Below, one piece after another: positions 37,970 through 41,576 of a DNA stretch of 64,000 nt (position 1 is the stretch's first letter; each line of letters begins with the position of its first letter). The stretch is taken from assembly GCF_900199375.1 (NCBI RefSeq), contig NZ_LT900217.1:868001-932000 (forward strand), given 5' to 3'. Position numbers and translations under genes: made by a program. This DNA comes from Gordonibacter urolithinfaciens. Lineage in GTDB: Bacteria; Actinomycetota; Coriobacteriia; Coriobacteriales; Eggerthellaceae. The notes beneath the pieces are model-generated. The model was not told where the DNA came from. It saw only the letters and a list, made by a program, of their open reading frames with translations, and did no database searches.

Positions 37970-38303
37970 CTACTCCCACCCTTTCCACACGTCGGGCGCG
38001 TAGCCCACCGTGGCCTGCTTGCCGTTGCGCACGATGGGCTCGGCCAGCACGTGCTGGTTCTCCAGCAGCTTGTCGAACTTCTGGTCGGGCGCGAGGTACG
38101 CGAGCAGCGCCACCGTGTCCTGGTCCTTCGCCTTGGGGTCGACGAGCGCGTCGATGCCGCCCACCGCGCGGCGCACCGACTCCAGCTCGCCCTTGCTCAT
38201 CCCCTTCTCCGCCAGGTCGATGAACTGGAGCTTCACCCGCCGATCCTTGAAGTAGCGCTGCGCCTTCTTCGTGTCGAAGCTCTTCTTGGTGCCGAACACC
38301 TGG
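37970..38303 (-). pseudogene. ArsC/Spx-like gene cut off from its start codon by an insertion
   Basis: The remnant reads QVFGTKKSFDTKKAQRYF onward to YAPDVWKGWE, a thioredoxin-fold ArsC/Spx-like protein in which the usual CxxC cysteines are absent (TKKSFDT). The missing start, ATGAACAT, is at 41569-41576 on the same strand, beyond the 3.25 kb insertion. Joining 41576-41569 to 38303-37970 restores an uninterrupted 113-residue protein beginning MNIQVFGTKK. The original Shine-Dalgarno (GGGAAGG) also lies on the far side. A TTG at 38326 inside the insertion could start an 8-residue replacement N-terminus, but no ribosome site is evident, so expression is probably lost. Confidence 0.85.
38290..38303. 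repeat. left copy of 14-bp direct repeat flanking the insertion
   Basis: TGCCGAACACCTGG at the junction of the ArsC-like gene and the insertion, identical to 41555-41568. In the restored gene only one copy is needed, so it is either a duplicated target or a recombination core. Confidence 0.85.
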
Positions 38304-38326
38304 GTTAATTGAATTTTGTAAAGCAA

Positions 38327-38587
38327 TGAATTGTGTAGATGAACAGGTATTTTGCGTTTAGTTATTCGACTTCGTGGAAAGAGGCAGTTTCGTTTTTGCG
38401 TTTACTATTTCCAAAGTCGTTTTTTTTGCTTTCGATTGTGAAGACTCTTTCGAATATAGACATACCTGTTTAGACCCCCTGTTATAAAATCGTAAGACTT
38501 AATGCAACGATTATTCCGCAGGACGGCGCAGATGTTCCTATTCGGTTGTCCCCCCGCTCGGGCGGCTTGGCAGTTGCTTTCCTTGTC
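38327..38587. other. AT-rich left segment of the insertion, no gene
   Basis: This stretch has T-runs (T8 near 38420) and an inverted pair, GAACAGGTAT (38341-38350) and ATACCTGTTT (38462-38471). No reading frame is supported. The composition differs sharply from host DNA and suggests a foreign origin. Confidence 0.5.
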
Positions 38588-39907
38588 CTATCGGGCCAGT
38601 ATGTCCTTGATCAGATAAGGCCTCATGACCACTTCGTCGGGTTCGAGGAGCGCGTAGCTGAGACCGTCCACCAGCTCACCCAGCCCTGCCTTCCTGGCAT
38701 TGGAGATGGGAGACGTGTAGTTGAGCCGTGGCCTCAGGTACGAGTTGAGGTGCGAGCCCAGCACGGCCATGTCCGTCTTCTCGAACTTCCTGAGCGAGGT
38801 CCCCTTCGGGATGATACGCCTCAGCTCGGCATGGTTTCGCTCGCAGAAGCCTTTCTGATCGGAGCGTTGCGGATCGCAGTAGTAGACGCTGCAGCGCTTC
38901 ACGCCGTTCTTCCCGTATTCGATCTTCTGATGGTCTTTGAACTCGCTCCCGCGATCCGTGAGGATGACCTCGAAGAGCTCGGCGAACGAGTCCCCCAGCA
39001 GCGATTGAATCTGGTCGATCGCCAGTTTCACATGGATCTGGTCTTTGCGCTCCAGGTACATCAGCACCTGGAACTCCAGCAAGGGGAACGTGAGCGTCAA
39101 TATCGCCGGCACCTCTCCCTGCCTCCCCTCGACGCAGTCCATCTGCACCGCCTTGGCGCGCTTCTCCTCCGGCAGGGCGAGGAAGTCCTCGTACAGATGT
39201 CCTTCCATGCTGGGCGCTTCTTCCTTCGGCCCGTCCTTCTTCTTGCGGGGCTTGTAGCGGTTGCGTTTAGGAAGGTGGAAGTTGATGACGTCCACGATCC
39301 CGGCCTCGACGTAGTTGCGATAGGTGCGGGGGGTTATCGAAAGCTCCTGGGCATGGGAGGCCCAGACGTGCTCGGGGCTCTGTCCCTGGTGGACCAGGGG
39401 GGTCACAATGAAGTTGATGCGCTCCAGCTCCTCCTCAGTGCAGTCGATTCCCGCCCGCGATTCGGACCTCCGCTTCTTGGCAAGCTCGTTTGCCATGTAA
39501 GGATCGTAGAACATGTAGGGGTGATCGCACCCGTGCCCGTAGCGGTTGGCGCATTCGTTGCAGCAGTACGGCGGCTTTTCCAGCATCGGGCACGGGTCCG
39601 CCAGGAAGTCGGAGCACAGCTCGTTGCATTTGCCACCCTGGCAGTTCCTGCAGAACATCATGCAGCCGTTATCGCATAGCCCGGCCTTTTTGCACAGGCG
39701 GGCGCGAAGGCAGATGTTCCTGGCCTGCGCCACGAGGTACCTCGAGGACTCCGGAACGCGGTTCCGCTTGATTTCCCTGATCACGCTGGAGGGGGAAGCG
39801 CCGATCTCCCTCGCGATCTTCGACATCGAGTCCTTTCTCGCAATCCCCCGTTCGATATGCAGCCTGTCGTCGATGCCGATCTGAGCGTTTCTTCCTGTGT
39901 CGGGCAT
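38588..39907 (-). CDS. IS30-family transposase
   Basis: A 439-residue transposase. The N-terminal HTH is SMSKIAREIGASPSSVIREI; a cysteine-rich zinc-binding segment follows (KKAGLCDNGCMMFCRNCQGG, KPPYCCNECANRYGHGCDHP), as in the long IS30 subgroup. The DDE core shows Asp in KAVQMDCVEGRQG, Asp in EVILTDRGSEF, and Glu in QKGFCERNHAELRRIIPKG. All catalytic residues are present and the frame is intact, so it may be active. It probably starts at ATG 39907. Confidence 0.93.
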   Translation of the reverse strand: MPDTGRNAQIGIDDRLHIERGIARKDSMSKIAREIGASPSSVIREIKRNRVPESSRYLVAQARNICLRARLCKKAGLCDNGCMMFCRNCQGGKCNELCSDFLADPCPMLEKPPYCCNECANRYGHGCDHPYMFYDPYMANELAKKRRSESRAGIDCTEEELERINFIVTPLVHQGQSPEHVWASHAQELSITPRTYRNYVEAGIVDVINFHLPKRNRYKPRKKKDGPKEEAPSMEGHLYEDFLALPEEKRAKAVQMDCVEGRQGEVPAILTLTFPLLEFQVLMYLERKDQIHVKLAIDQIQSLLGDSFAELFEVILTDRGSEFKDHQKIEYGKNGVKRCSVYYCDPQRSDQKGFCERNHAELRRIIPKGTSLRKFEKTDMAVLGSHLNSYLRPRLNYTSPISNARKAGLGELVDGLSYALLEPDEVVMRPYLIKDILAR

Positions 39908-40004
39908 GCTCGATCACCCCCTTCCGAGCCCGAGCGGTTACGCAGATGCTACACTACGGATGAACTGCGGGCAACGGGAGTAGCGAGGAAGGGGGCATGC
40001 GGCG

Positions 40005-41429
40005 ATGGCGGACAGCCTGGAGGATCCGGAGGCCCTTGTCATGCGCTTCCGCAAGGACAGCGGCTTGACGAGCGCCGTATCGTACGCCTACGCCAACAAC
40101 GCGCTGAGGTTCGTGCGCGACCTCGAGGCGAAGGGGATCGGGCTGGACGACGTCACGCCGGATTTGCTCGAGTCCTTTCTCAAGAGGCTGGCGAGGAGTA
40201 GCGGGCAGCACTCCTGCGAGAACGTCCGCTCGGCGGTCAGATCCTTCTTCAGGTGGTTAGAGTCCGAGGGAATCCTCGCCGATGCCGCGGGAAGGGTCGG
40301 GCGGCGCGGCGGCCACGGGCCGAACACCCGCCGCTCGATGAAGTCCGCCAAAGGAGATGCGCCGCGAGGCGAGCGAAGGGGCCGCTTCGGGTCAATCGAC
40401 CTCCAGATCATGGAGTCCTTCGAGATGGAGCGCAGGTCGCAAGGCTACAATCCGAGGCCCTACCTTAACGCCGTGAGGATCTTCTCCCGGTACCTGCAAG
40501 ATACGGGCGTCTCCTTCGACAAGGTGAGCCCCGCTACCCTTAAACGCTTCATGGCATGGGCGGAAGAGGCTTATTCGGCGAACTCCATATCCACCATAGC
40601 GGGAGGGGTCAAATGCTTCTATCGCTGGCTTGAGGCCAAAGGGTACTGCGACGATGCCGCCCGCAATCTGACCGCGCCTGCAGCCAAGAGGAACTCGACC
40701 CCTCGCGCCCCGCTCGGCGTCGACGACGCGCGGCGGGTCATCGACGCCGCGGGGGACCAGCCGGGCGAGGAGGTCTCGCTTAGAGACTCCATGGTCGTCA
40801 AGCTCATGCTGCTCGGGACCTTGCGCCAATGCGAGCTGTACCGAGCCGACGTGGGAGACGTGTCCTACGTCCGCGACTTCGCATTGATCAGGCTTCGAGG
40901 TTCGGCCAGCCGGCCCGGAACCGTCGCCTACCTGCCCCCTACGGCGGCCTCGGCGGTCGCCCGCTACACGGCTTTCAGGAAAGCGGGCCCGGAAGACCCT
41001 CTCGTGGCCGCATGCTCGAACTCGCATCGCGGCACCAGGCTCACCGACGTGTCGATATCGGTGATAATCAACGGCGCCTTCAGGCGAGCGGGGATAGAGG
41101 GGAGGCCCTCGGAGTACAACCTCTCGCAGACGGCGATCGACATCGCCATGGCCGAGGGCTACGGCAGGGCCGCCACGCTGCAGCTGGCGAGGCCGGGGAG
41201 CTTCTTCTCCCTCCTTCGTCTCGAACAGGGGCACTCCAAGGCCTCCGAGCCTATCCAGGACCAGATAGAGCGGATGCTCGCCGTGCTGGACGGCGGGAGG
41301 AGCGTCCTCGCGAGCGCCGGCGAGATCCGGGCCATGCTGGACGGCGTCCCCGACGAGGGAGAGGTCGTCGTCTCGATAGGCGACGGCGGCGGGCTCTCGA
41401 TCGAGCGTGTCAGGCCCGCCGGCTCCTGA
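40005..41429 (+). CDS. tyrosine-recombinase-like protein with duplicated core-binding domain and degenerate active site
   Basis: A 474-residue protein. Two SAM-like core-binding domains occur in tandem: residues ~5-90 (ALRFVRDLEAKGI, then VRSAVRSFFRWLESEGI) and ~128-212 (AVRIFSRYLQDTGVSFDKVS, then VKCFYRWLEAKGY). The C-terminal catalytic-like domain keeps the first Arg region (LLGTLRQCELYRADVGDV), but the HxLRH block is replaced by EYNLSQTAIDIAMAEGYGRA, the second Arg/His box is not recognisable (LARPGSFFSL), and no obvious Tyr nucleophile follows. It is probably a DNA-binding or accessory protein rather than an active integrase. ATG 40005 follows GAGGAAGGGGG. Confidence 0.75.
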   Translation: MADSLEDPEALVMRFRKDSGLTSAVSYAYANNALRFVRDLEAKGIGLDDVTPDLLESFLKRLARSSGQHSCENVRSAVRSFFRWLESEGILADAAGRVGRRGGHGPNTRRSMKSAKGDAPRGERRGRFGSIDLQIMESFEMERRSQGYNPRPYLNAVRIFSRYLQDTGVSFDKVSPATLKRFMAWAEEAYSANSISTIAGGVKCFYRWLEAKGYCDDAARNLTAPAAKRNSTPRAPLGVDDARRVIDAAGDQPGEEVSLRDSMVVKLMLLGTLRQCELYRADVGDVSYVRDFALIRLRGSASRPGTVAYLPPTAASAVARYTAFRKAGPEDPLVAACSNSHRGTRLTDVSISVIINGAFRRAGIEGRPSEYNLSQTAIDIAMAEGYGRAATLQLARPGSFFSLLRLEQGHSKASEPIQDQIERMLAVLDGGRSVLASAGEIRAMLDGVPDEGEVVVSIGDGGGLSIERVRPAGS

Positions 41430-41554
41430 CCCAGGCCCTCGTCTTTCGACCGCGGCATGGCTCGCCTTGCGGTCGCTTTCCCGCCTTGCCGTTCGCGATG
41501 CCCTACGTTGAAAGACTTATTGCAACGGCTTTGCAATTCTGATTTCAATTGAGC

Positions 41555-41568
41555 TGCCGAACACCTGG
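41555..41568. repeat. right copy of 14-bp direct repeat flanking the insertion
   Basis: TGCCGAACACCTGG, identical to 38290-38303. Immediately to its right, on the minus strand, lie the displaced first codons (ATGAACAT, 41569-41576) and the ribosome site of the ArsC-like gene. Confidence 0.85.
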
Positions 41569-41576
41569 ATGTTCAT

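Follow-up and report, generated by a model that had tools for sequence, protein, structure and literature searches.

A probable IS30-related transposon with long target duplications and a catalytically dead Xer-like gene in Gordonibacter urolithinfaciens, with its closest kin mostly at dif

The insertion and the gene it splits

A 64,000-nucleotide stretch of the Gordonibacter urolithinfaciens chromosome (contig NZ_LT900217.1, positions 868,001 to 932,000; hereafter the window) carries a 3251-bp insertion (38304-41554) that interrupts a small gene resembling ArsC/Spx and contains two divergent genes separated by a 97-bp gap: one for an IS30-type transposase (38588-39907, minus strand) and one for a tyrosine-recombinase-like protein (40005-41429, plus strand). 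The unit has 14-bp direct repeats outside and imperfect inverted ends inside, and is very probably an IS30-related transposon of a group that makes long target duplications, whose closest members lie mostly at the chromosomal dif site and in some cases encode a catalytically dead Xer relative, the window copy being an insertion away from dif.

The initial annotation had proposed an insertion of about 3.25 kb breaking an ArsC/Spx-like gene, an identical 14-mer at both junctions, and restoration of a 113-codon gene upon removal of one 14-mer and the 3251 bp beside it, all of which we recover. The 14-mer TGCCGAACACCTGG stands in exact copies at 38290-38303 (plus strand, at the transposase-3' end) and 41555-41568 (plus strand); these are the only two window matches at up to one mismatch, and 0 of 100 shuffles contained two. 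The 3' part of the split gene occupies 37970-38303 (minus strand), as placed by orthologue search and joined-frame comparison, and its 5' end, comprising ATGAACAT and the duplicated 14 bp, lies at 41555-41576 (minus strand) by the latter comparison. Once one 14-mer copy and the insert are taken out, the flanks join into an unbroken 113-codon frame whose product is identical at 108/113 residues to the uninterrupted orthologue of G297, a genome of the same genus, and at 109/113 to that of G075, with the stop codon left out of both match counts. The uninterrupted gene with a single 14-mer, suggested as something to seek in relatives, is thus present in both genomes, where the empty site can be read directly. 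Matches to the gene occur at E <= 0.001 in 29 of 138 family genomes (the window's own counted). Its ArsC/Spx label is weak, with TIGR01617 at 35.2 bits (cut-off 75) and PF03960 at 19.9 bits (cut-off 24). Further copies of the whole unit, also sought at that suggestion, did not turn up in the 3.29-Mb chromosome, where it is found once.

The terminus downstream of the transposase gene begins GTTAATTGAA (38304-38325, plus strand) and corresponds to the end that faces dif in the relatives; the second begins GCTCAATTGAAA on the minus strand (41533-41554) and matches the first at best in 8/12 positions, the inner limits of both being approximate. Two subterminal motifs were read by eye, AAGACTTAATGCAACG (38494-38509, plus strand), a possible transposase-binding site, and AAGACTTATTGCAACG (41512-41527, plus strand). 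Positions 41508-41534 match the element of genome G292 at 93% over 27 bp.

Transposase and target duplications

The 439-residue transposase combines an N-terminal HTH_38 helix-turn-helix domain (36.4 bits) with a DDE core (D257, D318 and E356 or E361) and scores 89.2 bits against the IS30 model NF033563 (cut-off 80), which 10/10 members of our alignment A1 match at E <= 1e-5. Across 45 full-length rows the catalytic columns are kept in 44 (D257), 45 (D318) and 44 (E356), and the window protein has both the DDE residues and the N-terminal helix-turn-helix expected of the IS30 family. Its structural model (mean predicted local distance difference test, pLDDT, 74.9) has a core of retroviral-integrase type, and among the 50 fold matches listed of 554 there are retroviral integrases and IS21 IstA but no TnsB. 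Between the two domains lies a cysteine-rich stretch (residues 66-127) with 12 cysteine columns, each occupied by cysteine in 25 to 45 of the 45 rows, which may possibly form a metal-binding domain for target or end recognition. Pattern-seeded scans of viral contigs returned no transposase relatives. Elsewhere in the host chromosome, a remnant of a broken IS30-type transposase is found at C1:539190-540132.

Around the 45 full-length transposases (window included) we sought matching inverted ends immediately bordered on the outside by direct repeats of 11-17 bp, 32 rows having enough flanking sequence. Duplications of 12-15 bp were found in 21/32, compared with 4/992 in a swapped-flank control; 11 are 13 bp long, 6 are 14 bp, 3 are 15 bp and 1 is 12 bp. 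The duplicated sequences vary between copies and are present also in relatives that have no recombinase gene. Because duplications of differing sequence recur in this way, well above the control, we read the window 14-mer as a target duplication and not as an attachment site.

Position of the group relative to dif

The close relatives comprise the 15 places to which the transposase profile gives more than 500 bits in 138 family genomes. With the pattern TGATAAnnnnnnTTATGTRAA (0-1 mismatch), dif lies 275-420 bp from the transposase in 11/15: G276, two copies in G175, two in the window's own genome (sharing one dif), G181, G099, G292, G139, G325 and G323. The other four are G304 and G305, whose loci are truncated at contig ends, the window copy, which is off dif, and G214, which has a degraded dif-like site at the expected distance (score -13.0, against -17.2 for the window's 99.99% point and 23 to 54 for true sites). 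Another contig, probably of the G305 genome, carries a transposase fragment with dif about 300 bp downstream, and the broken transposase of G297 and a remnant in G286 are likewise at dif. On the transposase tree the window protein is sister to that of G292 (support 100/100) within a ten-row clade (97/97), of which 8 rows are at dif and one, G214, at the weak site.

The junctions follow a common order: an end CAATYAAC or a near variant, a duplication of about 14 bp, usually some 17-21 bp more, and then the 22-bp dif core. It is the transposase-3' end that faces dif, with insertions on either side; copy B of the host genome and the G099 copy lie on the TTGATAA side and the others on the TTATGTAAA side, an arm which from the dif consensus we take to be that of XerD. 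Order and side were assigned partly by eye for G099, G175 contig 21, G276, G286 and G323. Read by eye, G276 (locus L054, 5190) and G175 (locus L055, 2172-2323) seem to retain the dif-facing end of an older element, 14 bp upstream of the one now in place, as though insertions had stacked at one target.

Among weaker-scoring relatives, dif at up to two mismatches was found in 0/17 loci, a set covering part of the weaker transposase matches and including several loci clipped by contig ends. Of 80 further dif regions, 79 were without a transposase match and one held a remnant, in a sample from which sites already studied and others, including the copy-bearing dif of G323 and G325, had been excluded; no transposase match was found at dif in G067 or G103, two further Gordonibacter genomes, either. 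The host's own dif is the sole exact match in its chromosome (C1:37145-37165), and since the GC skew changes sign, from plus to minus, between 3.24 Mb and 0.17 Mb, this site at 37 kb is close to the terminus.

Several further observations concern dif itself. The host site (C1:33500-41500) has a related IS30-type element on each side, of about 1725 and 1827 bp, neither with an Xer-like gene and each with its own 13-14-bp duplication. In many of the Eggerthellaceae dif regions examined the site lies downstream of lexA-nrdR-dut-(MerR)-DUF4190-like genes and can therefore often be located by its neighbourhood. Another exact dif-like site, TGATAACACATATTATGTAAA, occurs off the chromosomal dif in two Gordonibacter genomes (loci L239 and L240), with the same neighbouring frames in both, and perhaps marks an integrated Xer-using element.

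The window copy itself is best read as an off-dif insertion. A weight matrix built from 75 sites finds no dif-like site at the expected distance and an ordinary score in the dif-facing flank. One of the window's highest scores falls on the element's own transposase-3' end, which we take to be chance, since this end aligns by eye with those of the relatives. Saturation of dif by the resident copies was considered as a cause and set aside: given the apparently stacked insertions in G276 and G175, an occupied dif need not block a further one.

The Xer-like protein, rival explanations and known systems

The second gene encodes 474 residues with two SAM-like N-terminal domains, found also in the G292 protein, and a C-terminal extension. 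Its best NCBIfam model is XerC (73.1 bits, far under the cut-off of 335), its only three PDB profile matches are XerD, XerA and an archaeal Xer, and a fold search with its weak model (pLDDT 72.3; predicted template modelling score, pTM, 0.42) ranks XerA first; on this evidence from sequence and modelled fold we assign it to the Xer family by descent. Clear members of its family number five among 395 genomes of the order (window, G292, G276, G286 and G297), the next matches scoring 181 bits or less, at the level of ordinary integrases, that of G214 included. The C-terminal extension is common to all five and conserved. All five, the window's included, have lost the catalytic His, His/Trp and Tyr, 4/5 have lost Arg-II (the window's among them) and 2/5 Arg-I, whereas an ordinary integrase used for comparison keeps Tyr, His, His/Trp and Arg-II, and the G214 match keeps Tyr and both His. 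The host genome encodes two Xer recombinases above the family cut-off, both with the whole R-K-H-R-H/W-Y set by which the window protein does not qualify as an active recombinase. A protein without the catalytic Tyr and both His should not carry out integration of the unit by the usual route of catalysis.

The dead gene diverges from the transposase in 4/5 cases (window, G292, G276 and G297), with both genes open only in the window, G292 and G276, and the gene or a remnant of it is at dif in 4/5 (G292, G276, G297 and G286). In G297 an internal inversion of about 150 bp disrupts the transposase gene (locus L236, 4373-5701), the adjoining dead-Xer gene being open. The carriers do not form one clade on a transposase tree of 21 rows (3 changes), which implies that the gene was either gained once, long ago, and later lost in some lineages, or acquired several times. 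Searches for the recombinase elsewhere gave no matches covering 80% of the query in plasmids (0/14 matching records) or phages (0/1), no relatives in pattern-seeded scans of viral contigs or in a pattern-seeded genome-contig scan using a single recombinase protein, and, at E <= 1e-30, nothing beyond the window's own sequence and one 149-bit match at ordinary-integrase level in a sample of 346 genomes of the phylum.

We therefore propose an IS30-related transposon whose transposase alone would cut and join, with a 14-bp stagger, probably by copy-out/paste-in transposition as described for IS30. In its close relatives dif would be chosen through recognition of bound XerC/XerD or of the dif DNA itself, and the dead Xer protein, where present, would assist the reaction or regulate it, probably as a DNA-binding accessory: a target reader, an end-binder or a regulator.

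Several observations weigh against this proposal. The automatic duplication rule failed in 11/32 rows, of which two, those of host copy A and G175 contig 1, have evident repeats on inspection but a weak end match, the other nine having none by the test. In G276 a matching duplication was not obtained; by eye, the duplication of G175 contig 21 contains three mismatches and that of G099 agrees at 12/14 positions. The gap to dif in G323 is only about 8 bp. The window copy carries the Xer-like gene and yet is off dif, with dif at up to three mismatches absent from the whole window by pattern search. An AT-rich stretch in its far flank scores -16.95, just over the 99.99% point of -17.2, although far under true sites and at the wrong distance. 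The recombinase family has only five members, of which the G286 copy contains a stop codon and has no transposase match beside it, and the G297 transposase is broken. Adding G297 to the tree (21 rows) places the group of host copy A inside the dif group and lowers support to 87/94. Lastly, units without the Xer-like gene are also at dif, so the gene is not needed for insertion there and a targeting role for its product stays putative.

The presence of the same 14-mer at both junctions and of a recombinase-like gene within the insert could also be explained by a tyrosine recombinase inserting the unit at a 14-bp core with the transposase as passenger, a site-specific integrating unit as the initial annotation had offered for one of its two alternatives. 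We consider this extremely improbable and rejected it on the dead catalytic set, with Tyr and two His missing in 5/5 sequences, and on duplications that differ between copies and occur in relatives without the recombinase; the terminal inverted repeats, imperfect like those of DDE transposons, also argue against it. The annotation's other alternative, a new passenger-carrying IS subgroup, agrees with the group-wide 12-15-bp duplications and the divergent Xer-like gene in 4/5 units. Equally improbable is domestication, in which the transposases at dif would be chromosomal genes passed down along with the lexA-nrdR-dut-dif neighbourhood and not repeated insertions; that neighbourhood is indeed the same across several genera. 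This too we discarded, since the junctions differ in duplication, in the side of dif used and in spacing, since 79/80 regions in the sample described above are without a transposase match, and since the G067 and G103 dif regions are empty.

That the dead protein acts as a decoy lowering host Xer activity, or as a regulator of the transposase promoter with no part in targeting, is possible if unlikely: the divergent genes with their 97-bp gap and the loss of the catalytic residues would suit such a putative role. It is a tentative and rather unlikely suggestion that the group is a second dif-hunting transposon family besides IS1202 in which some members use the dead protein to read dif or host XerCD as target selector; if it were so, a site-specific recombinase would have been turned into a selector of targets. 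About as unlikely is a version in which the protein selects targets by binding dif or host Xer and the window copy has changed specificity, with the arsC-like site as its true target. The Xer-type fold with Xer proteins as nearest kin, the gene or its remnant at dif in 4/5 units, the conserved C-terminal tail and the paired SAM-like domains of the window and G292 proteins all speak for a selector. On the other hand, relatives without the gene also hit dif, two of them in the same genome, the carriers fail to group in a single clade (the tree requires 3 changes), and a single off-dif case is insufficient to show a new specificity.

Compared with known systems, the proposed transposon resembles the IS30 family in its NF033563 match, DDE core, N-terminal helix-turn-helix and imperfect inverted ends. 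IS30 elements usually have target duplications of 2-3 bp, unlike the 14 bp of the window and the 12-15 bp in 21/32 rows, and the window unit has a second gene; by duplication length it is not a strict IS30 member, and we file it as IS30-related, belonging neither to IS30 in the strict sense nor to IS1202. Tn7-type transposons pair a transposase with a dedicated target protein, a likeness in concept only; the window unit has just the two genes described, and its possible target-reading partner is an Xer relative whose targeting role is putative. Elements that exploit Xer (IMEX) recombine into dif via host XerCD, whereas the present group leaves dif intact next to a DDE insertion and its duplication. 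The dif region as landing place is shared, as the excerpts of two IMEX reports describe (PMC5357621, PMC9765430). For E. coli IS30, the available part of one account gives 2-bp target duplications and insertion at hot spots or beside its own inverted repeats (PMC9333248), the latter resembling the stacked ends in G276 and G175.

The closest parallel in behaviour is that of the IS1202/ISAjo2 "dif site hunters", which, according to the accessible portion of their description, insert in fixed orientation beside chromosomal dif or dif-like sites, the ISAjo2 type lying 5 bp from the XerC site and having TGT ends, a 5-bp duplication, a TnsB-like transposase and no extra protein, and the IS1202 family as a whole having duplications that measure 3-5 bp or 16-28 bp or are absent (PMC10132070). 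Adjacency to dif in fixed orientation and a similar transposase length are shared. The present group differs in its duplication of about 14 bp, usually some 17-21 bp from the core and on either side of dif, in its GTTRATTG and (mostly) GCTNAATT ends, and, set against the published description, in its IS30-type transposase, sometimes with a dead Xer protein. The window copy itself departs from IS1202 in its ends, which begin GTTAATTG and GCTCAATT and not TGT, in its 14-bp duplication, and in lying away from dif, where the short-duplication IS1202 group and 11 of the 15 best-scoring copies of its own group are found. The excerpt of a further paper mentions the IS30-family ISAba125 and ISAjo2 in Acinetobacter and makes no mention of IS30-type elements at dif or of a dead Xer (PMC12907356), and neither is reported in the titles and abstract openings of the open literature that we searched. 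The case cautions that a long direct repeat beside a recombinase gene need not mean site-specific integration, and allows direct tests of the means by which a transposase locates dif and of the possible reuse of a recombinase fold for reading targets. Insertion sequences that target dif were previously described for the IS1202 type; what is new here is very probably an IS30-related, long-duplication group that targets dif on both sides, some of its members carrying a dead Xer protein.

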